Source: Bolinopsis microptera
Lineage: Eukaryota; Ctenophora; Tentaculata; Lobata; Bolinopsidae
NCBI RefSeq assembly: GCF_026151205.1
Contig: NC_087076.1
Span: 4,673,902 to 4,737,901 of the forward strand
Direction of reading: 5' to 3'
Length of the DNA stretch: 64,000 bases
This document shows positions 34,307 through 51,362 of this stretch, piece after piece; the stretch's first letter is position 1, and each line of letters begins with the position of its first letter. A model generated the notes under the pieces. That model did no database searches, was not told where the DNA came from, and saw nothing but the letters and a program-made list of their open reading frames with translations. Made by a program: the position numbers and the translations under genes.

Positions 34307-34906
34307 ACCTTTAGAGACCCAATGTTGGATTTGTTCTTTTCAAACTTTCATAGGAATTACGTTTATACATCAAAAGTTTTTAGCAGCAATTCAAATTCAT
34401 TTTGTTTAGGTACCTTTTGACATTATAGTGATCAAAGGTCTGTTTAACCATGTTCTTTTGATCTATCATGATGGATCTCCTATTTGGATCTCCCTGTGAT
34501 TTAATAAATCGACTGATCCCTCTACATTGGGTTTGATATAGTTTGATATCTTTTGTTAAGGAACTCATATTTGTGTATATTGGATTTAAAACTATAAATC
34601 GTAAACTTCAAAAAAGATTCAATGGTCAAGTGGATGGAATCGACAAAGAACATTCATTATAAACTATTTCACAGACATTGTGTCTTTACACTTAGACTAC
34701 AGATACTATAAAGCAAAATGATACTTACAATGGAGTGAATTAGACAACAAGTAGCTTTGAAAGTAATTATTAAATATACCTAGAAATAGTTTGATGACGA
34801 CTTAACTAATAGAATAAATATGTTTATTCTAGTTAAGTCGTCAACAAACAATTTATATGTATATTTAAGAAACAATTATAAAAAGCAGCAGATTCAGTAC
34901 ACTCAC
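34307..34906. other. Region downstream of the last recognised sushi exon
   Basis: No clear exon. A weak minus-strand candidate (about 34732-34782, phase-compatible, donor gtaagt) could continue the sushi gene, but its product has no sushi pattern. A hairpin lies at 34789-34849. Confidence 0.3.
34789..34849. repeat. Hairpin near the 3' side of the sushi gene
   Basis: GTTTGATGACGACTTAACTA and AGTTAAGTCGTCAACAAAC form a near-perfect stem that extends through AGAATAAA/TTTATTCT with a two-base bulge and a very short loop. Confidence 0.7.
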
Positions 34907-37900
34907 CCTTATTCACACAAAATGGTGTGGAGGAGAAGAAGAAGCTCTTATCATTATCACAAGTAATCACGTGACTACCTATCAGCACGTGATCAGAGTC
35001 ACATGACACTGTCACCACTGTGCCATGTCTTACAGGAAATGTTGCTGTTGTTAGGAGGTGGTTCACTAATAGAGGGCCGTCACACTGAACTGAAATACAG
35101 TGAAGAGACTAATCATTAATAAAAATGACCGTGTGAAAGTATAAACCCAGTTCAGAATGATTGAAGTACAGCTGATTTGAATGATGGAATATTCTTCCAT
35201 GTCTGAAAGCTTCTGATAGCATTAGCAGCATCAAATATATATATGAGGACGTTATGCAGTAATACGTATTATATTCCGTCACCATAATAAAGTTAAGGTG
35301 ATTATAGTACTTTTTTCTAATATCACCTATTTGGCAAGAAGGGAAGTGTGTAAAAGTGAACTGTCCTCCCTCGTAACACGTGATAACAGAGTCTCCTAGC
35401 AAAGTGTAACCATAGTTACAACCCACCATCACCTCAGTGCTGTACACTACAGGTAGAGGGATCTCTATCTTCAAGTGCTGAAGAGAACCTGGCAGATTCC
35501 TGCACTCGTCTGAAACACAAATCATTCTTAAATATAATACTCCTTAGTGGAGCGTGCAATGATCAATCATCGGATGACTTTGTCTATTATTTAATTTCAG
35601 ACTCGAATATTGACTAGTCGACATATTAATGTAAGTGTCTGAACTTCTATTGAACATGATTATATCATAGGATCAGAAATATGTGCTATATTCACAGCAG
35701 GCTCTCACCTAAGACACAGGAAGGCACCTCTTCATAAGAGAACTCTCTCTCCTTCACACAAGTAATAGAACTATCTCCCACTAAAGAGTAGCCTGGTATA
35801 CAGTGTATCTCAACAGTTGTTCCGTAGTCTACAGGGAGAGCTCTATCTGTTCTAATGTTGAAGATAGCTGGTAACTTTACACAGGTGTCTGTAGAAGACA
35901 AATATAATTCAGAACAAGAATATAGCAGGCGAGTTGTTAGCATGTCCATACAAGATTTATCAAAAGAGAATTGTTTTACAGCTTGCATGGCGATTATAAG
36001 GAATATGAATTGAGTCCCAGTTTAACAGAAAAACTATTTTCACTGTATTACAGAGTTTTTTTTCTACCATATACTCCATTATCATGAAACTGAACTGTAT
36101 TGTAAAGATGTAGCTAACCTTTAGAACAAGAAGGCTGAGTCCTGTAACTAAATAAAGCATCTCCTTGACACATGATAGTTGTGTCTCCTGACGTCAGAGT
36201 GTATCCAGTCTCACAGTTAACACGCACTTCGATTCCTTTAGTCACGGGAAACACTGTGTTTGTTATCAGGAATTGTCCAGTAGGAAGTTCGTTACAAGTG
36301 CCTATCAGGATAATAATTAGTTCAAAGTTAGTATTATTTCTGATTATTCCGCCATTTTACTAAAGGAGAAAGAAAACTAACGGGATTTAACCTTGTCTTA
36401 TTAAGAAGCCTATGCCAATTATCTTTGCAATGACTTAACAATTTGATATGTTATAATAATTCGATAATTTCCTGTAACTTTGTACTGTAGCATTTAAACA
36501 TACTCTTACCAACTAGATTACACTTAGGTGTCACCCCGTATGTGTACCCCTCCCCATCTTCACAAATGATAACACTATCTCCTCTCAGCTCCACCCCTAC
36601 CTCCCCACATGTCACTGTTACTTCAGCTCCGTAGTTTACTGGGAAGGTCTCTGATGTGGTCAGCTCAACTAGTTCAGCTGGTAAACCGGTGCATTTTTCT
36701 GAAAACAAAAGGCATTTAGAAAGTGTTATCTTACAGCGAGGAATAGTAGTTGTAGAATACTATTTCTCTAGATTGGTGCAAGGAAATTCAATGTATGAAC
36801 AGTAAATACGCTACATCAAATGAATCAACGGGACCTCCATGATAAACAACAAGGCCGGCCACTGAAGAAATAAGACTCACATTGATTAATGTAAGTCAAT
36901 TAACGAGATATGCACTAACTCTGACTACAGGAAGGTTCTGTCTCATATCTAAAGGTATTCCCTTTCAAGCAGGTGACGAGACTGTCCCCTAGTAGTTTAT
37001 ACCCTGTGTCGCAAGATAATGAGACTGGAGATGAGTAGTCCACAGGGAAGGTAGTTGTAGTTACAATCTTGTCAATATCAGGAACACCCTGACAATTATC
37101 TGAAATAAGATAATTAATTAGTATAGTGAACTATCGTGAAATATAGTGCAAAACATAGTGGGACTGTGAGACTAGATACACTCAGGGTACAGGATTATCA
37201 CGTGTCAGGGAGAGACGCTCTGTTTACAGAACAAATTCTAGACCGTAACACAATAACAAATTTGATTGCTCAAGATGATTTTAAAAAAAAAAATGTAAAT
37301 GGAGTTAAAGCTTCTACCAACCGTTTTTAACTTGCGAAGAAAATAAAATTGAAGCATTCGCAATATAACATAGAGATAAGAGACATGTGCACTAAATTAG
37401 TCTCTGTTCCTACCTATTACACAGACTGGCAAAATGTCTCCTGAGTGCTGAAACTCGGTGTCTTTAACACAGGTCAATACATCTTCTCCTGTCAGTTGGT
37501 AACCAGTATTGCAAGTCACTGTAACCAATGTGCCCGGGGCCACAGGGAACACAGCTGTTGTTACCATTTCAGTCCAAGTATGATTCAGATCTCTACAGGA
37601 CTCTTGATGGATTTTAGGTCAAAGTATTATATTATTTTGTTATAAATTTACCAGTATTACAGTGCCTGTGATCTTACTAAAATGGTACCCCACTTTTTTG
37701 CAAATATCATGATTTACTATTTTTATTTTTCAAATATATGCTCATTACAAGATACCATTAGAAACTAATCAGGTAATCAATTAATCTTACCACACTGAGA
37801 TTGCTGGGTATTAGCTTTAGTATTGGTTGGGCACTGAAAACACAGCCCTGATCCCCTACTACTGTAATGGTTAGTCTCACACTTCACACACTCTGACATT

Positions 37901-40900
37901 AAACTGTTCTTGTAGAAACCAGCTTCACAAGGGTCTGAAAATTAGATAAGTTCAGTGTAAAGACGTGAAAACCTGTGGTTACAATGGGTTATAATATAAT
38001 CTGCAGATTTTAAATTTGCAAGGGCCTCATTTTCATAATAAAGAAAAACTCAACAGCAGCATTATTCAAATAATGTAAGATATGAAAGAAGTGATGGTAT
38101 TGTTAATGGTAGGAAGGTGACCCACATTGTTCTGACACACCCGACACACGCCGTTAATTCGGCGATAGATTGACGCTGGGAGCTATCTGTCACGGATCAG
38201 AAGGTTCACTTCCCTACTTTCCTTATTACAGTATTACTTAAGTTATAAAGCTTATATTGTAAAATTAACTAAAAATGTAACATACTGCAGGCGCTCTGGT
38301 GGTAGTTAACTTCATGTCCTATGTTGCATCGTTTACACACTGTCATGCCAACCTTTCTGTACTCATGTTGAGGGCACTTCTCTGAAAGATCACGTATAGT
38401 AATATCAATAAAATTTAATTCTAAATCTTTATCAATGTCAATAAGCCTAATCTACATTAATATCCAGTCTTAAAAAGTTGAAAAAGAGATCATTCCTTGT
38501 TGTTTTCCCAATTATAACATTACATACCACAATTAGTTCGGAGAGGGTTTGATCTGTAACCCTCCAGACACCACGAACAACTAGATCCTCCACGACCACC
38601 GTTACTGTCCTAGTGAGCACAACACACATTCCTTCTCAGAGTTCCTGTACTGACCAGCTGGGCAGTCTGTGTATGCCGTAATTTCGGACACGTGGATACA
38701 CCCCGTATATTTGTATAGTGTTTTAGGATGGTGTACCGTCAGTAAAAGTGTGTCCCCGCAGGTGTTTTGACAGTCAGTGTAGTGTAAATTGTCTGTTGTG
38801 TTTAGTGTTTGTGATATTCGTAGTGTGCCACACAGCTCCTCTGTCTCGGTATTTGTATCGATGAGAATCACTTTCGTGTCATCCATTCTATGCTTCTGTA
38901 AGGAATTTAGATGGGTTTGAGCGATAAGGATTTTTTTCACACAGCGAGTTGAAGAGAATTGCAATCTAAGCCAAATTTTAGTATCATGGTAACAAGCGCT
39001 GTGATAACTTGAGTCTTCCCAATTAAGGTTCCCATCAAAACTGTTAGCAACTGTTCCAGAGTATATTTTACCACTCGCTTCACCAGAGACAATTTCGATC
39101 TTCGTTTCCCCTTGAAAGTAAAGGAAATAAATATCAGCAGACTTTTCAGAGATTCAAGATGCTTAGCTCATTTATGATTTACACTCCGTAACTTGATTTA
39201 AAATAGATTTTCCGCAACAAACTAAAGACAGTGTGCTTAACAAATACCTGGCAGAAGGGAAGTAGTGCACGGAGTACCCCCAACATCAGCTAATGGACAA
39301 GCAGAGCACTGAGCAGCCCCGTTATTATAGACCCCTGCTGAACAAGGCACACATATCCCTCCCTCATCCCTGTAGTAGTTAACAGGGCACTCCATATACA
39401 CTGCTATCTCCCTTATCTGAATACACCCCTCCTCTTCCTTGGTAGTCTTCATCACTGTTAGTTGAATCATGTCACCACAGTGCAGGGAACAGTCAATATA
39501 GTGATAAGCTCCCACCAGTGTCTTGTAACTTCCACTCAGTCTGATAGTCCCACATAAGTGCTCCTCTTTGGTCAGCGTGTTTATCAGTACAACTTTAGTG
39601 TGATCCATTCTGGCTTCATGAAAAAAGCCCAGAAATTCCTGGGCTATGCTGACTTGTTTAACACAGCGCGCGCCTGTAAATCTCATCCTGAACCAATGCT
39701 CGACATTGCGTCCACATATAGTGCGTGAGGAGGTTTTCATATCTCCATCCACCGCTTTTGCTGATCTGTACTGCCATTTTTTTATCGTAGTGGAACTCTG
39801 TTCAACTGAGGCTATCGCTATCTTGTGGAACACTGTAATAAATTTAAGTTTTAACATTATTAGACGATGATTTTACAATACCTATATTATATTTGCGTTG
39901 CGATCCGGTATTATTTCTCAGTTATTTCCAAGTCATGTCAGTGACAGGTCACAACTGTTTATTATAAACCGTTATCTTACTATATACAAAACGATACGAT
40001 ATAATATATATATTATATACATATAGGTAGGTATAAATATCTGTTGCCATTTCACTGACACCACGACATCAACTTTAACACGACTTTCCACAGAAACCGT
40101 GAGAGATATAATATACTTTTTTGGCTGGGTTTAATGCTTTCATGGCCTTTTGACCAGTATGAAGAAATACAAAATCGACCAAGGAATAAATGATTTAGGT
40201 CTCGAAAATTGGACCCCAGGTGGTTTCAAAATCACAAAATAAACAAATGTCGTTGTCTCTTCTCACCACTTTAGAGTTCCTGCTAGTATAAGTAATGTAC
40301 TATGGCCAGTAAACAAATTTCAGTTAGGGCAACTATACCAAAATAAAGTTGTACAGTTATATTAACAAAGTTGTGAGAACCAATATGTTTTTGAGGTAAT
40401 TTACTTAACACTGACCTTGACAACATGCTCCCTCAGTTCCAGTATTCCATATTACCTCATCTCTTTCCTCTCCCTCCCATCTCCACAGCTCAACATTCTT
40501 TGTGTTCTCCACTACAAGCTCTAGTGTATTATTTACATTGGAGAGGTCTGCTGTATTGCTGCTCCATAATGATCTACTGCTGCTCGAGTAGAGAACCAAG
40601 TTTCCGTCACTCTGAAATACCGACCATTTGAATTGAAATTTCAAGTGAACTGTGGAGAGGATTTGGTTTTATGATATCAATTGAGCCCCAGGATACATAA
40701 TATAGACTATAGACTATACAGTAGTTAGGGGGGGGGGGGGGGGGGGGGTGGGGGGTTACCTATTAGTTACTCATTAAACCAACCTGGAATCCAAGACCTC
40801 TTGGGTCAACATCCTGTGCTGCTGTGTAGGTTTGCCATATAATTCTCTCAGTGTCAGTGCAGATAAGAGCCAAGTTGCCATCAACCCGCATTTCCAGTCT

Positions 40901-41133
40901 AGCTTGACCATTGCTGGAGGTTATTGACGTTCCTTGTCTTATCCAGGAGCCCGTTTCCTCCGGTCTTATGCATTTGTTTTCCGAGCAACCTGGTTTGTGG
41001 TTAATAATGATGATAAAAGTGAGGACTGAGTGATTGAAATGGGATTGCTAAATCATGGTTACAGCTTACCTTGTGATAGACCCTCCAAGATATTGACCAA
41101 GAAGAGAAGGAGCAAGTATGATCTTCTTGACAT
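34907..41133 (-). CDS. Secreted modular protein: B-lectin, two fucolectin-like domains, Cys-rich repeats, seven sushi domains (3' end open)
   Basis: Exons in coding order: 41070-41133, 40784-40989, 40416-40611, 39248-39832, 38528-39110, 38286-38381, 37791-37934, 37414-37602, 36920-37099, 36510-36698, 36119-36301, 35709-35888, 35327-35509, 34907-35089. It starts with a signal peptide (SYLLLLFLVNILEG), then a bulb-type lectin domain with two DGNL motifs. Two F5/8- or fucolectin-like domains follow (each with AxDG, RMDxTKV, CGTI/CGTL, CGD), each leading into Cys-rich TNFR/ephrin-receptor-like segments. Seven sushi modules follow, each one phase 1-1 exon of 180-189 nt with four cysteines. The role is probably extracellular recognition or adhesion. 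Exon 5 is 2 nt too short for its phases (see findings). The last exon ends at a donor, so a C-terminus or membrane anchor is still missing. It diverges from the phosphatase gene. Confidence 0.85.
40728..40755. repeat. Poly(G) tract
   Basis: A run of about 21 G, then T, then six more G, in the intron splitting the B-lectin domain of the sushi-type gene. Confidence 0.95.
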
Positions 41134-41846
41134 AATGGCTTCCAGTGCAATGGCAGAGATTTAACTCATAAAAATTGATAACTGATTGACTAAAATAAGA
41201 GAAGTTCGTGATTAAAAATATAGGAAAGTTTCAGTTACGAAAAAGATTTCCTGGTACACCGACCAAATAAATAAAACATACATCAACTATAAGAGCAGTC
41301 GGTAAGGAAACTACACAATAATATTATCGACATCAAATAGGGAGTTAGCTCAGCCGAGGGCGGCTCAATATAGTACAGGGAGTACAGAACATTAGTTTTA
41401 ATGTTATTGTTTACTCCACCAGAGAAGCAGATCATAGTAGGATAGTGAGTGCGTATGTGGTTCGTGACTTAGTGACTAACGTGTTTACTGTTTAGGGGTT
41501 ACTGATGGTGTGGCTCATTACATCGCTCTAGGATTGTGGGGACTAACTGCGGTTTGCTTTCCTAAAACATGGAGTCGAGCAAAGAACCGACTAAGTAAAT
41601 AGGTCTAGTCTAGAGAATAATGATCTTTGTATGCTGTATACTGAGAGAAGCAACCATCATATTCCCAAATCTAGAACACAAGAAAGTTTTTTGTATTTGG
41701 AAGCAAAATGCTGGAATTTAACTCTAGTGAACATTGAAGCGATGTAGAATGAACTGTCAGATGCTCGCAATGTATAAAAGTATAAAATCTCATGTTTATG
41801 TTGGACGTTATAGTTAATGGTGTCTCATCAGTCATCATATTAGGAT

Positions 41847-41905
41847 GCAGTGAAACTATCGGACTACGATGTATGGGGACTTGCCACCCCACGGCAATAT
41901 CAAAA
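41847..41905 (+). repeat. 59-bp dispersed repeat, copy 1
   Basis: It shares about 55 of 59 bases, same strand, with 45749-45807 (GCAGTGAAACTATCGGACTA, then TGTATGGGGACTTGCCACCC). This copy is about 0.7 kb upstream of the sushi-type gene; the other is in a phosphatase intron. Function unknown. Confidence 0.85.
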
Positions 41906-42852
41906 ACACTCTGTTACATCGTTTCCTGTTAATATAAAACTCCGTTACTAATTGAACTCAGTGAAACAATAACTAAACTCATGTAAATGTCTAATAAAAT
42001 ATAAAATACAATATAGTGTACTACTAGAAAGCTTAATAATTAACTATGAATGAGTAATTATGGTAAATAAAACTATTCCAACACAACCAAAGAAACAGCT
42101 CTCGGAAAAGGTAACACGGCATATGAAATAATCAAAACAGAATCGAACAAATGTCGACACTAAATCTATAACCGAGCACGTGTGCGTTACCACTCGTGCA
42201 CATCTAAGTTTGACCCATATCTATAATCTCTGAAATTTCTGAGCAATTCTAAGAAGAATTACGTGAGATATTAAAGGTTTGCGTGTGGGCAGTTACTTCT
42301 GGGCCACCCTGTATAAAGTTTTCAATGTATTCGCATTACAATTAAAATATGCAGCAAAACCGACAAAAAAGGCTATAAAGCTATAAATTCTGACTATAGC
42401 ACTAGCAAAGAAGACTATTTATAGCTAGTCTTTGCAAAACTGATTAGGCAATCATTGTTTAAGGAGGAAAATTATGAATAACAAGTGATAAAGCTCTGTT
42501 CTTTTGTTAGCAAATTGCCGACGGTTTAAAAAAAAATACCTCAAGAATAAATTACTATAAGATAGGCAAATTAGTTTTCTTTCTTCCTTTCAAAATGTCA
42601 CTAGAATAACCTGTTATACCAATTATAGGCTTAAAGGGTCTGTCAGTTAACAATGCTTTATCAATTATCATTCATGATGCTCCCCTGAAACAATAATTGG
42701 CTAATCAGTTTAACAAATTGCATACAGTCTACTACAGTCTACTTTTAACTTCTTGAAGACGCCTTTACCAGTGGTTAGGGGTACTGATGATTCGGTAATT
42801 TTAACGACATAACGGACACTTTAAGTTTATGCACAGTGCAGAATTCCAAATA

Positions 42853-44113: not shown

Positions 44114-47100
44114 ATGCAATGGATGGTGCTGCTGTTAGTTGTCCTCAGCGTAGTTGCAGCTAGAGATAAGCGGGACATTGAACACACACCTCTTCACAAG
44201 AGGAATGCTCAGAATGCTCTGTTAGATGTCAGAGATACACATGTTTCTTTCTCTCATTCGGAATTTGCTTATGATGACTCTGTAAAGTAAGATCTGACTT
44301 TGACGTATTTTTAAGAGATGTTTTTGAAAGATCTTTGTATCCTAAATGACTTAAATTTTTAAATTCTTATCAAATATCATTCTTTATAGGACAAAAAACG
44401 TTTTGATCTATCTAAAAATATAATTTATTGCATTAATTGCACTGTCATACCATTACAGAGTGTATGCAAACACTTCAAAGATCACGAATGAGGAGGCAGT
44501 CGAGATAACATGGGAGAACCCTGCAGCTAGTCTGTTCGACATGATAGCTATTTACACTCCACCTTCAAGAGGTGTCAAGGTAACAAATTATACGGAATCT
44601 TGTACCTACCTGAACCAAACCTTGATTGAACTGTTTTACAAAAAAACCCAAAATCAAACTAAACTATATGGATTTAGGTCGTTTTCTAAAAATGTTCAGT
44701 TTGATGATTTCATCACCTTTTTCAGGATTATTTAGACTTCAGATACGTGTCAGACACCAAAGGATGGCAGAAACACCAGGGAGTGTTTCACGAGATCTTG
44801 TTCAACATGCGAGCTGATTATGAGATTCGTTACCTTGCTATAGGTTACCTGTCATCTACCTTTTATTATGTGTATTTCACGTTTCTGGAGACTATAATTT
44901 GTAATTAACTGATTTGTGCGGTCCCTACATAACAAAGTGCCCAACTAATATAAATCTGAAAGTAGAAATTTTGTCCTTCGTTAACTTCTGATCTGTTGTT
45001 TGTTCAAAACTTGCTTTACCTTTTATCTAGGAACGAAGTTGTGATTGAATTTTGTTCATAAAACATTTTACTCGTTCAGATAAACACCAAAAAGCGACTG
45101 TAAAAGCAAGTTTTAAGATCTCAGTCCCCGACAACGAACCAATGCATGGTCACATAGCAGTCACATCCAGACCTGGTGAAATAAGGGTCATGTGGGGCAG
45201 CGCTAAATCTGATAAACCCAGAGTCAAGGTCCGATATATTAGTAATATTATCCGTAATAATATGCCAATTTGATTTAGATTCATTAAATATTTCCCAAAA
45301 TTAAGGTTCTGTAGTTGAGACACTATCAATAGACTTGGATTGTGATGAAACATTGGCACATTTTTTGATAAATCAATTAAACAGACAAAACAAGCATGTA
45401 ACCACCTAATCGATATTACCAATGTCTATAATTAGGAATATATTTACCAACCACCTCCTCCAATTTAGTTCCTAATTTCCAACCCTCTCCCAGTTCTCCC
45501 AGTCACCTGACTTACAGAACCCAATGACAGCACTGGCAACCACCACCACCTACACTGCTGATGATCTGTGTGGGGCACGTGCTAATGTTACAGATCCTGT
45601 CATGTATCAAGATCCTGGCTTCTTCCACACTGCTCTTCTAACCGTTACTGCCGCTATTTTGTTGTGATTTTTATGTTGCTGTAATTATCTTATCTCCTTT
45701 TTGCGATAATACTAAAGGCTTACTGATCCAAAATCTGTATATTATGACGCAGTGAAACTATCGGACTACAATGTATGGGGACTTGCCACCCCATGGCAAC
45801 ATCAAAATATATTACTTCCTTTTACTTACTAAAATGTTTAGTAAATACCTAATTTTGGGATTATCTGCTAGGACCTAAAGCCAGGCGTCACATACTATTA
45901 CACATACGGAACTAACAAAGCTACAAGCAAGACTGCCTCCTTCGTTGGAGCACCCTATCCAGACGCCAAGGTATTTTGTTACTACATTACAATATAGTCT
46001 ACTTACTATTCATCATTACATTAACAATTTAACATACTGTGAAATTGAATGGAAATAAGATAATATATAGTAGCATCTCGAACTGGCAAAGTTTTAAAGA
46101 ATCTCCACCGCTCAGGTAGCAGTGACAAAGTTTATAGGATACGGAGATATGGGAGTCTACTACCCGCCCTACAATGGTGACAGCATGGGGGCAGCGGGTG
46201 TCACACGCAACCTCGAACAGGAAGCTGCTAAAGGTCTGGACTTCATCCTCCATTTCGGTGATCTCAGCTACGCGCGCGGGAGAGGCTACATCTGGGATCA
46301 GTTCATGACACAGATGACTAGTGTGTCGGAACAGGTTCCGTACATGGTGGGGGTCGGGAATCATGAGTACGATCACGTGAGCGGAGGAGAGAAGGATCCT
46401 AGTGGGGCGCCTGATAATGGGTTCCGTCCTCAGTGGGGGAATTATGGGAATGACGGAGGTGGCGAGTGTGGTGTACCCACCTCGCACAGGTAATTCCAGC
46501 ACTGACTACTTCTTTTCATTTATTTGTTATTATTTTTCTTTATTTTAATTCGGTATTCTTAAAAGCGAGTAAAATCTCAGGACATATAATATATTATATA
46601 CAAACCCATGCAACTGTGAATTATTATTTACAAACTACAATCTCATTACAACACAACTAATATTACGGGATCCGGATTATTTTCTTATAGGAGACTACAT
46701 CTGAATGCTTTCTTATGTCTGCTCCTGTCATGTCATACGATATTCTTGCCATAACATATAATATAATCGAAAATATAACTGTTTTCCCCACTCCTAGTGC
46801 CATACTCATTACTCAACTTATTCCACACTCTACAATGTCCACGAAGACTGCTATCCTGAAATCTAGATTACACTCGCGTAAATCGTTTAGATGAAGAATT
46901 CCTGTGAAGATGTCGATCACTCAAACTACCATAATTCGTCTCCGACAGATCCAAATACTGACGAGAGACGACCTCTATTTTCTCTAGACACTCCACTAAA
47001 GAGTGCCCAACTGCTGATTGATAAAATTTTTCTTTCTCGTCGATGGGAACTTGTAAGATCGACTCAAGTTGTTTATTTAAGAGGGAAAACGTGAGAGCAG

Positions 47101-50100
47101 CAGCAAAAGTAGCATCTTCAAGTGAGGTATCAGCTGAATCCCTCTTCTCATTCTTCTTCTCATTCTTCTTATCAGCCTGATTCCCTCGCATTTTCAACCC
47201 GATCGCAATAGAAGTTAAACCCACCAAAACTGATACCACCGATTTTTGAAACGAAAATCCCATGTGATTTTGAAGAATAGACATAAAGACAGAAGCTGCA
47301 CCACAACTGGTTACTCCTACAAGTAATGTCTGTCGAGCTAGAAGTGATTTATCTGATGTATCTTTTCTTTCTGGGTCTTTTTCAACGAGAACATCGCAAA
47401 TACTGTTCAGGGCCTCCCCAACTCCCGCCCCTACTTCTCTCAGTTCAGGCAGGGTTTGCTGGATCAGGGTTTTCAAGAAGGCTTCAAATGTAATCCCTTC
47501 ATCAGGATTTCCCCAGGATTCATCTGGATTTCCCCAGGATTTACTACGAATGATACTCTGCTGTGAAGAGTCGTTCAAGGCAGCTGATAGCTTAGTGAAC
47601 CTGTACTGTGCTTCTTCTATCATCTTCTGAATCCTTATCACACTCTCCATTGTGGCCTTCTTTTCAGTTTCTTGACGATTGTTCATTACAATCAGCTTTT
47701 CCAAGGCTCCGTCAAGGTTGTGATTTATTGTGATCAACGAGACTGAATCCGCCAGAAGTTTGATGATTCTTTTCACCCAGTAAAACCATCTCAACCCAAC
47801 CTGTACATACCCTTCACAGTCCGTGTCGTTCCCTAGCCAGTCTACTTTGAGTGTATCCGTACTTTCTTTATCCATTGTGAAGGATTACTGAATTTGAATT
47901 GGCTGTTTAATAATTTAAACTAATTTTACAGAAGTGATTTAATGTATGCTCGCTAGTACTACGCGTACGGTCCTTTCAGCTTATCTTTAGATTGAGCTGG
48001 CTTGCACAAAACAGAAGAATATGATATAAACAAATTTGCAAAAGTCAAGCTGCAAATTATACGGCGACAGTCTTGTTTTCGTTATAATTTATTCGTAGAG
48101 GAACCAAGAAAAGTAGAGGAAGTAAGAACCGTAAAGTAAGACTATTAACAGAACAACAAACGAATGTATCATAACAAAACGTGACACTAAGACAAACTTC
48201 ATTGATATAGATCTAGTTAACTCAATCAGGTTTGTACATGGAATTTGGAAAAATGGCAAAGGGTAAGTTTGACTGATACTTCCACTGACCGTATTTTCAT
48301 ACATTAGCTATCAGACAAATTGAAAAATCCTGTAACACAGCCGAAATATCTTAGAAGATGCGATAACTCCAATAACTCAGCAATGATCGGAATTTCAAAA
48401 TGCTGAAGGACTGGTAACTCGTATGAATACCTTGATGTTGAGCTATTTTTAACCATCTCGTCCCCTGGTTGTACGTGTAATATAGTAGGGGGGAGACAGT
48501 GTATTGTAGGTGATTTTACGTAGATAAAGATAGACGATGGAATGTAAGCCACACCCTACATTCCTCCCTCCCTCAGATACATAGCGCCTGATAACGGTAA
48601 CGGAGTGTTCTGGTACAGTTTCAACTACGGACTAGTTCACGTGGTGATGTTCAGTAGTGAGCACGACTTCAGACCTGACAGTAGACAGGTTAGTATTCAT
48701 TGTAATCTTGTAAATATTTTGTAGATAGTCTCTTAATATCTTGAGATTGTAAATACTTTGTAAATATCTCGTTATAGGAAGATCTTATAAACATTTTGTT
48801 ACTGTCCAGGGAATATCTTGGGACCATCTTTCAAACATCAAGCTAAAATGTTGTGAACAGCTGTAGGTTGCTTGAATTAGGGTGGCATCAGATGACAAGC
48901 ACACGTGTCACGTGTGTAATCTAATTAGGCTCATGGACACGATAAGTAAATAAATCGTGTAAAACAGACAGTTCCAGAATAAGTAATACTAAGTTAAATC
49001 GAATTTGGTATCAAGGTCAAAACTCGAAACCATGTGATTTTAAATTATATTATCTGTTTGCTAGAAGTCGGTGACACGGTCTGAAAGCATTCTCTGGAAT
49101 GAAATTAAAAACTTCCTTTACAACCTCGTGATGGCAGATAGTAAGTAAGCAGTTGTGTTTGTGCTTTATCAAATAAAGAAGTAACCAATAAAACTTCCCA
49201 GTACCTGTGGCTGGAAAAGGACCTGAAGTCAGTTGACAGAAATAAGCACCCTTGGGTTGTAGTCACTTCTCATCGACCTCTTTATACTAGCCAGGTAATC
49301 TTCTTCTTAATTTGAGTACTAATCAGTACCCCATCAGTCGTTAGGTACCCCATTAAGTTGGAAGTCAATCAATGCCTCAGCTTAATAGAGCAAAATGATT
49401 TATTTGTTCTAGGACAGATAATCGAATAAAGGAGCTATTTAGGGTATTAATATTGATCGCTATAGTTTGTCAGTTTGACAATAGTAACATAACAATCATA
49501 ATAGCTCGTTCTAAGGCACTTTGCCAAGATATACAGGTAAGTATGGGAGGCAGCACAATCGTACATATTGTTGTTAACGTTACACAACACAGATACTTGA
49601 TATACTTTTTTGTAGTTTGTTCTACTTCCTTCTTATTGACATTGTATCAGTGCTTTTACGTACTGTATGTCACCAGACACCAGCTTGATATTAAAATTTG
49701 TATTCAACTTTCTTTAGTTTATCTTCTCAGTTCTCAATGAGTCATGTCAGTCAAAAAATATTTCTCAGGACCAAAATGGGGACCATGTTGTTGGGCTTCA
49801 CATGATAATGGCACTTGAAGAGCTTTTTTACACTTACAAAGTCAACATTCACCTCTCTGGTCATTATCACAGGTCAAATTAGTTTCTCAAATTATGAGTC
49901 ATTAATAATGAGTTATTATATTCTTAAACTTACTCATGATTTCTCGTTTCCAGGAGCAAAATGGGGACCATATTGTGGGGCTACACATGAAATTGGCGTT
50001 AGAGGAACTTTTCTATAATTACCAAGTTAACCTGCATATGGCGGGACATCTACACAGGTTTTTTAGTTCATATTGGCAGGATTCGAAGCTTTTTGACATT

Positions 50101-51362
50101 GTCGGCATTTTTAATTTGTTGTGGCAAAATTTTCAAAATACTTAAATGTAGCACGCAGTACATACTGTCAATTATTTATCTTTGTAAATTTTCACGTACG
50201 TGCTGAAACGCGCGCATTTTGATTTAACAAACGCAAATGTCACAACAAAAACAAACTCCATCCGATCCTTTTTAACATAGTTAAATTCTAGTTACGAGAG
50301 AACTTGCCCGGTGGTTGCTGGAGACTGTGTAGCCCCTGGTCATGGTACTGTTTACGTTATTAACGGAGCTGCTGGAAAGTTCCTTGATGCCCAAAACTAC
50401 GATCAATATTCATGGTAATTACCCTTCAAATTGTGATTAATAAGCTAATTAGAATAATTATCTTCAGCTACGAGAGCACGTGCGCAGTGGTGAGTGGCGA
50501 TTGTGTTAAGCCCGGAACTGGAACTGTTTATATAGTTGTGGGCACTTCTGGTCATTCTCTTGAACAGCAAGCTTACAGGCCGTATTCTTGGTGAGCGTCA
50601 GTTTGTCGCCAATCATGTGTTATTTGAATGCAATATTTACAGTACCCAAAAGTCAAATGATAATTTGTCGTCCTATTTTGATTATTAAAACCTAGTCAAT
50701 TTAAAAGTTGATCGAAATTCGATTGTTGGCACTAAAATCCCTGATTTAAAGTGGTTTTTCAAATTATCGTCTATCAGTTTACGTGTCTATTTTATCACAC
50801 TTCTACTTATCGCACACTCTCAAGTATTCTCTGTTTCAGGTCAAAGTATCATAACTGTGAAAAGTTCGGATACCAACGCATGACAGCTAATACAACTCAC
50901 ATGCATGTAGAATTCGTTACGGTAAGTCAAACTTAATTGAGCTTCTAAATATAATTTGCTGCTCAACAAATCCTGGTTCAAAACTTGAGACTTTATAATA
51001 TGCCACTTTCCTGGACCTAACTATCAGCTCCACAGTCGTCTTTTTATAATTTAAACTAGTTAGCAAAGAAATGGGTCCTATCTTGATTCTTGCAGTATAT
51101 ACTGTAATAACTTCTGTATATCAGTTCATATCCAGGATATACCAATTGGTTAAATCTTAAGTACTCAAGTACGAACTCAAGTACGAACTCAAGTACGTAC
51201 TCAAGTATGTACTCAAGTATGTACCGTTAAGTAAGGTTCGGAGTAGTAGACAAGCGATGTCAATATTATTCCACTTAGGCACCGAACCAAGAAGTGCTGG
51301 ACAACATAACAATCCCAGTCTGGGACGAGAGTGCTACAAAACGGGAATTCAAGAGACGATGA
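44114..51362 (+). CDS. Secreted purple acid phosphatase of the high-molecular-weight (plant/ACP7) type with two duplicated exon pairs
   Basis: Exons: 44114-44286, 44459-44579, 44726-44843, 45080-45228, 45494-45643, 45872-45970, 46116-46489, 48577-48688, 49202-49294, one of 49769-49872/49954-50057, one of 50292-50414/50468-50590, 50840-50921, 51279-51362. All are in phase; each form is 593 aa. A signal peptide (MVLLLVVLSVVAA) leads into an N-terminal fibronectin-like part, then the metallophosphatase domain. All five PAP motifs are seen: GDMG (Asp281), GDLSY (Asp319, Tyr322), GNHE (352-355), TSHRP (His456) and GHxHSYE (His495, His497). These bind the two-metal (Fe-Fe/Zn/Mn) centre that hydrolyses phosphomonoesters. 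The acceptor of exon 5 could also be 9 nt further on. A 335-aa gene sits in the 2.1 kb intron on the other strand. Confidence 0.92.
45749..45807 (+). repeat. 59-bp dispersed repeat, copy 2
   Basis: Partner of 41847-41905, here within the intron between phosphatase exons 5 and 6. Confidence 0.85.
46868..47875 (-). CDS. Unrecognised intronless 335-aa protein nested in a phosphatase intron
   Basis: One open frame from ATG to stop, far longer than chance in this A+T-rich sequence. I recognise no family. The N-terminal half is predicted helical and charged (NNRQETEKKATMESV, RIQKMIEEAQYRF). A perfect seven-residue duplication (SWGNPDE twice) follows near residue 115. Two hydrophobic segments are TLLVGVTSCGAASVFMSIL and SVVSVLVGLTSIAIGLKM, around 184-230, separated by a short polar turn: a possible membrane hairpin. 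A Lys/Glu-rich linker (DKKNEKKNEKRD) and a second helical stretch end the protein. No signal peptide. It lies wholly inside the intron between 46489 and 48577, antisense to the phosphatase. An intronless body could mean a retrocopy. Confidence 0.7.
   Translation of the reverse strand: MDKESTDTLKVDWLGNDTDCEGYVQVGLRWFYWVKRIIKLLADSVSLITINHNLDGALEKLIVMNNRQETEKKATMESVIRIQKMIEEAQYRFTKLSAALNDSSQQSIIRSKSWGNPDESWGNPDEGITFEAFLKTLIQQTLPELREVGAGVGEALNSICDVLVEKDPERKDTSDKSLLARQTLLVGVTSCGAASVFMSILQNHMGFSFQKSVVSVLVGLTSIAIGLKMRGNQADKKNEKKNEKRDSADTSLEDATFAAALTFSLLNKQLESILQVPIDEKEKFYQSAVGHSLVECLEKIEVVSRQYLDLSETNYGSLSDRHLHRNSSSKRFTRV
49769..50057 (+). other. Duplicated exon pair A of the phosphatase (GHxH metal-ligand exon)
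   Basis: Exons 49769-49872 and 49954-50057 are both 104 nt with the same entry and exit phases. They encode DQNGDHVVGLHM...SGHYH and EQNGDHIVGLHM...AGHLH. Each brings its own two metal-binding histidines. Including both would shift the frame (208 nt is not a multiple of three), so only one can be used per mRNA. Confidence 0.9.
50292..50590 (+). other. Duplicated exon pair B of the phosphatase
   Basis: Exons 50292-50414 and 50468-50590 are both 123 nt with identical phases. They encode YERTCPVVAGDC...YDQYSW and YESTCAVVSGDC...YRPYSW. The introduced differences cluster in the loop following the GHxH motif (for example HGTVYVINGAAG versus TGTVYIVVGTSG). Including both would keep the frame but duplicate a core segment, so they are most likely alternatives. 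Confidence 0.88.
51163..51222. repeat. 12-bp minisatellite, five units
   Basis: Five ACTCAAGTAYGW-type units in the last intron of the phosphatase gene. Confidence 0.9.

Follow-up and report, generated by a model that had tools for sequence, protein, structure and literature searches.

Can one gene rebuild the active-site end of an enzyme by choosing between duplicated exons? This question is raised by a purple acid phosphatase (PAP) gene of the ctenophore Bolinopsis microptera, located on the plus strand at positions 44114 to 51362 of a 64,000-nucleotide (nt) stretch of genomic DNA (contig NC_087076.1, positions 4,673,902 to 4,737,901, hereafter the window). Two similar exons of 104 nt (A1 and A2) are followed in this gene by two similar exons of 123 nt (B1 and B2). 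We assign a probability of roughly 0.84 to the following reading: mutually exclusive exons form two clusters in the gene, independent of one another, each mRNA contains one A exon and one B exon, up to four enzymes can be produced, the A pair is locked by the reading frame and the B pair by spacing, and the swap tunes the enzyme. Two mutually exclusive pairs had been proposed by a first-pass annotation of the window, and this proposal accounts best for the equal lengths and phases, the purifying selection, the frame lock of the A pair, and the short inner introns. Use of all four exons, each to the exclusion of its partner, is what we infer from these sequence features.

Structure of the gene and constraint on the duplicated exons

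Exons were delimited by GT-AG borders and by an open spliced frame. The continuous frame comprises 13 exons per transcript and encodes a protein of 590 residues. The features of the gene are as follows.

44114-44286, 44459-44579, and 44726-44843, plus strand: exons E1 to E3, GT-AG borders and open frame, protein start in E1
45080-45228, 45503-45643 (or from 45494), 45872-45970, and 46116-46489, plus strand: exons E4 to E7, GT-AG borders and open frame
48577-48688, plus strand: exon E8, upstream from E9
49202-49294, plus strand: exon E9, metal ligand H453 in SHRP
49769-49872, plus strand: exon A1, 104 nt, residues 461 to 494; helix, strand, and GHYH with ligands H492 and H494
49873-49953, plus strand: A1-A2 intron, 81 nt, with 33, 60, or 64 nt between the 5' splice site and a branch-like A
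49954-50057, plus strand: exon A2, 104 nt, with GHLH in place of GHYH and a donor (gtttttta) that looks weak
50292-50414, plus strand: exon B1, 123 nt; SYERTCPVVAGDC...GAAGK
50415-50467, plus strand: B1-B2 intron, 53 nt, with 26 or 34 nt between the 5' splice site and a branch-like A
50468-50590, plus strand: exon B2, 123 nt; SYESTCAVVSGDC...GTSGH
50840-50921, plus strand: exon E12, downstream from the B pair
51279-51362, plus strand: exon E13, the last exon, ending with the stop codon

The exons of the two pairs are arranged in the order A1-A2-B1-B2, and all four are preceded by AG and followed by GT. Phases match within pairs, since the A exons enter in phase 0 and leave in phase 2, and the B exons enter and leave in phase 2. 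Coordinates, borders, and phases therefore agree with the duplication, order, and equal lengths described in the first-pass annotation. Within each pair, the exons are neighbouring, internal, and similar, with the same frame and a similar length, as expected for a mutually exclusive cluster. Apart from the known exons, a tblastn search of the window with two isoforms returned no match with an E value better than 2 and revealed no further exon copy.

A1 and A2 encode the same residue at 24 of 34 codons (73.5% nucleotide identity), and B1 and B2 at 24 of 41 codons (61.8%). Codons differ at 21 of the 34 positions in the A pair, 11 of them silently, and at 30 of the 41 positions in the B pair, 13 of them silently; third codon positions take 16 of the 27 and 25 of the 47 nucleotide changes, respectively. 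The ratio of nonsynonymous to synonymous substitution (dN/dS), determined by the method of Nei and Gojobori, was 0.10 for the A pair (dS of 1.86) and 0.22 for the B pair (dS of 1.70), with dS near saturation in both cases; these pairwise values sum over both branches, so that a very recent loss in one member would escape. When the observed number of substitutions was placed at random (four runs of 20,000 copies), simulated copies retaining an open frame and a residue identity at least as high as that observed amounted to 0 or 1 in 20,000 in each run. The low dN/dS, the near-saturated dS, and the outcome of the simulation indicate that both members of both pairs have been under long-standing selection, and that the copies are old and constrained by purifying selection. 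It is hardly credible that the likeness of the exons results from chance, from an error of assembly, or from duplicates that are dead. The copies differ at 26% (A) and 38% (B) of their nucleotides, which argues against an assembly doubling, and they have kept equal length, phase, and splice borders under strong constraint.

Frame, intron length, and proposed exclusive use

All combinations of one A and one B exon are open over 590 residues with a single terminal stop, so that the four forms that had been envisaged are possible. Transcripts containing both A exons shift frame and reach a stop after 506 residues. Those lacking an A exon also shift frame, with a stop after 464 to 483 residues.

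The A1-A2 intron (81 nt) and the B1-B2 intron (53 nt) are shorter than any of the other twelve introns of the gene (14 in all), which measure 145 to 2087 nt. As a yardstick, the distance between neighbouring profile matches (217 match rows) was used to estimate junction lengths in genes of the same genome that encode myosin, chaperonin, and kinesin; profile overlaps of -4 to 16 residues and gaps under 6000 were retained. All 217 rows provided 113 junctions estimated at 98 to 5375 nt; a subset of 188 rows provided 108 junctions with the same minimum. The five lowest estimates (98, 107, 108, 118, and 119) became 98, 107, 108, 133, and 119 nt when the sequence was read, these lengths depending on a choice among the GT-AG candidates that continue the protein. 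Both inner introns of the PAP gene are shorter than all 113 sampled junctions. Four closer neighbours (raw gap of 51 to 74 nt) were outside the overlap filter: a myosin pair and three kinesin cases (one on contig C7 and two near-identical ones on C13), in which the second match begins, by eye, inside a longer intron. Eleven matches exceeded the profile span by more than 40 nt; in two of these, the additional 54 and 78 nt represent protein insertions in open frame, and the remaining nine bridge 111 to 195 nt.

The myosin pair is located on contig C3 (about 9154013-9154489), where two adjacent segments around loop-1 and switch-1 match the same profile stretch and are separated by an inner intron of 59 nt. 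This pair is probably the counterpart of 'cluster-0' of the muscle myosin gene Mhc2 of Mnemiopsis leidyi, which is described as a predicted mutually exclusive pair in the work of Kollmar and Hatje (2014; PMC3912159). The same short-inner-intron arrangement is thus present where specialists class exons as mutually exclusive, itself a prediction. Mhc2 cluster-0 resembles the PAP exons in being a predicted pair in a ctenophore, beside the nucleotide site of an enzyme; it differs in belonging to a myosin and in consisting of one pair of unequal exon lengths, as opposed to two adjacent pairs of equal lengths.

Counted from the donor, the branch-like sites revealed by pattern matching are at 26 and 34 nt in the B1-B2 intron and at 33, 60, and 64 nt in the A1-A2 intron. 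According to PMC6692369, human spliceosomes require in vitro a donor-to-branch spacing of about 50 nt, and assembly was abolished at 35 nt in a case cited there. The distances in the B1-B2 intron fall below the 35 to 50 nt quoted for mammalian assays. If a similar spacing is needed here, the 53-nt intron and its branch-like sites suggest that the B pair is locked by spacing. The A pair looks locked by the frame, because both A1+A2 and the lack of an A exon shift it, perhaps with the aid of spacing in the 81-nt intron. For mutually exclusive clusters, PMC5740500 lists the mechanisms that block joint inclusion (a frame shift, a donor-to-branch distance under 50, a U2/U12 mismatch, or RNA pairing), together with junction reads that bridge the other member and the absence of reads joining the members unless the frame shifts; pairs that recur in related species are regarded there as supporting evidence, not as strictly required. 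The PAP gene presents a frame shift for the A pair and predicted branch sites at 26 and 34 nt for the B pair.

Under the proposed mechanism, a mature mRNA would take a single exon from each pair, so that as many as four intact enzymes could be made. Exclusivity of the A exons would depend mainly on the frame, wrong combinations being shifted and removed by nonsense-mediated decay, with a possible contribution of the short 81-nt intron. Exclusivity of the B exons would result from steric blocking in the 53-nt intron, where the branch site would be about 26 to 34 nt from the 5' splice site.

It had also been suggested that complementary intron sequences could enforce the choice, and a search for them gave no convincing pairing. 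Ten intron pairs, aligned locally in reverse complement to reveal docking-type pairing, gave z scores of 1.7 or less. Comparison of the same number of pairs with dinucleotide shuffles by RNAduplex gave one weak pair, between the intron before A1 and the intron after A2 (z of -2.4, reached by 2 of 100 shuffles), which fails correction for ten tests. On the same strand, the A1-A2 intron resembled the B1-B2 intron (z of 3.7) and the intron after B2 (z of 4.3) in gapped AT-rich alignments scored against plain base shuffles, a likeness that we read, provisionally, as one of base composition.

Several observations weigh against the existence of two mutually exclusive pairs. Exclusivity forced by the frame applies to the A exons and does not extend to the B exons, because transcripts containing both B exons, or skipping them, remain in frame. 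This property of the 123-nt exons would fit a gene in which the A pair is mutually exclusive and each B exon is an independent cassette, giving both-B or no-B forms. We consider this arrangement unlikely: the 53-nt intron is shorter than any of the 113 sampled junctions, no branch-like site in it is more than 34 nt away from the donor, and the both-B and no-B proteins would repeat or delete the same 41-residue piece of the fold. For the A pair, the branch-like sites at 60 and 64 nt exceed the mammalian limit of about 50 nt, which makes steric blocking uncertain. More generally, the branch sites are pattern matches and the distance limit is mammalian, not ctenophore. No paralog with the same pairs was seen among the more distant PAP genes, three on contig C7 and one on C8, in all of which a single open frame runs across the A/B border. 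Finally, the A2 donor (gtttttta) looks weak, and for this reason A2 is the likeliest candidate for a decoy. One of the paired exons, with A2 the first candidate, might then be a decoy or poison exon, and exon choice would turn the gene on or off by frame shift and decay instead of selecting between enzymes, as the early stops caused by A1+A2 or by the lack of an A exon would allow. This possibility appears very improbable in view of the dN/dS of 0.10 of the A pair, the conservation of GHxH in both copies, the equally good match of the A2-B2 and A1-B1 isoforms to the PAP family, and the presence of further non-consensus donors in the same gene (gttacctg, gtccgata, and gttactgc).

Metal ligands and residues exchanged by the proposed swap

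The sequence places the gene in the PAP family. The A1-B1 and A2-B2 isoforms, the two that were submitted to the searches, both exceeded the cut-offs, with nearly equal scores, for Pfam PF16656 (PAP N-terminal domain), PF00149 (metallophosphatase domain), and PF14008 (PAP C-terminal domain). The top match in the PDB was lupin diphosphonucleotide phosphatase 1 (3zk4; E values of 5.4e-54 for A1-B1 and 6.7e-55 for A2-B2), followed by kidney-bean and other plant PAPs. Alignment to the kidney-bean enzyme (1kbp), whose metal ligands we take to be D135, D164, Y167, N201, H286, H323, and H325, identified seven ligands that are present in every isoform: D278, D316, Y319, N349, H453, H492, and H494. Lupin 3zk4 and kidney-bean 1kbp thus belong to the same sequence family, with ligands aligned to those of the PAP gene; we know of no duplicated exons in the genes encoding these two enzymes. 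Exons E1 to E7 (44114 to 46489) encode the start of the protein, the N-terminal PAP domain, and the first four ligands (D278, D316, Y319, and N349). H453 is encoded by E9 and both GHxH ligands by exon A; exon B begins within the codon following the last ligand. Whichever A exon is used would provide the last helix and strand and the GHxH motif, and the B exon would provide the next segment of the C-terminal sheet. In agreement with the earlier description, GHxH is retained in both A versions and two Cys residues (positions 500 and 507) in both B versions.

His295 and His296 of the kidney-bean enzyme have a substrate role. The QNGDH stretch aligned with them is identical in A1 and A2, as are the ligands aligned with His323 and His325. 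For the most part, the ten residue differences within the A pair are conservative, and they leave the catalytic residues untouched. The only difference inside the motif is the residue between the GHxH histidines, which is Tyr in A1, Leu in A2, and, by eye, Val in six relatives (3zk4, 1kbp, and four paralogs from the same genome). Changes are larger in the B pair, where 17 of 41 residues differ: the Arg of a YER motif, which is present in B1 and, by eye, in the same six relatives, is replaced by Ser in B2, and GAAGK in B1 becomes GTSGH in B2. The expression 'altered substrate loops', which had been applied to the swap as a whole, is therefore only partly supported, being too strong for the A exons. 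The swap would tune activity or substrate preference, not turn catalysis on or off, and it may alter substrate choice. We hold only tentatively the fuller proposal of a two-by-two splicing switch that, in an early-branching animal, rebuilds the active-site end to give four isozymes with different substrate preferences, relying on a frame lock for A and on intron shortness for B. If all four forms are made, this small gene would provide a clean test of how the specificity of a metal-phosphatase is tuned by the exchange of 34 and 41 residues. It also offers a natural comparison of two mechanisms of exon exclusivity within one ctenophore gene.

Known systems, paralogs, and other features of the window

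Smith and Nadal-Ginard reportedly mapped by experiment, in 1989, the branch-point position that enforces the exclusivity of a pair of alpha-tropomyosin exons. In that gene, as proposed here for the B exons, too short a distance between the 5' splice site and the branch forbids joining; the evidence is experimental for alpha-tropomyosin and inferential for PAP. Exchange of an enzyme core is found in coq-2, where exons 6a and 6e are mutually exclusive and switch the substrate, as indicated by RNA data and exon removal in PMC7434440. Such swaps are called rare there, and CYP4F3 is named as the most notable other case. The PAP gene shares with coq-2 the exchange of the enzyme core; coq-2 differs in having a single pair, supported by RNA, in an unrelated enzyme. 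No case of mutually exclusive exons in a PAP was found in open-access titles and the beginnings of abstracts, a body of text that leaves subscription journals and preprints mostly outside. Among the matches listed in a broader open-access search, none contained 'purple acid phosphatase' or 'ACP7'. On ctenophores and mutually exclusive exons, this open-access literature comprised the Mhc2 myosin paper and a Hormiphora genome paper in which the term occurs a single time, for a step of the annotation; the matches listed in a second, wider search included nothing closer. Remodelling of an enzyme core by mutually exclusive exons is already known, and the PAP gene would be a new example.

The three PAP genes on contig C7 are in tandem (C7:15800500-15810400) and have few introns; in the region that matches, their identity to the window gene is about 40%. 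The gene on C8 is a further similar PAP gene. A genome search listed no duplicate matches at these paralogs.

In the PAP gene itself, two AG acceptors 9 bases apart at E5 (exon starts at 45494 and 45503) correspond to three optional residues. Without splicing, E5 (45494-45643) reads on into a hydrophobic stretch and then a stop. The protein is probably secreted, its start being signal-like by eye. The 2.1-kb intron between E7 and E8 contains an intronless antisense reading frame of 338 residues (46871-47884, minus strand), which had no Pfam match at an E value of 0.001. One relative, at C6:14558175-14559166, shows 60 to 71% identity over two pieces, the larger of which is interrupted by stops. 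The frame fits the pattern of nested intronic genes, many of which are reported from a ctenophore genome in PMC8527503. A short element, gcagtgaaactatcggactac..., occurs by eye in two near-identical copies (about 41846-41910 and 45752-45810), the second in the E5-E6 intron, and looks like a dispersed repeat. A multi-exon gene on the minus strand (34800-41100) encodes, by eye, a lectin-like start and repeated Cys-rich segments resembling complement-control repeats.

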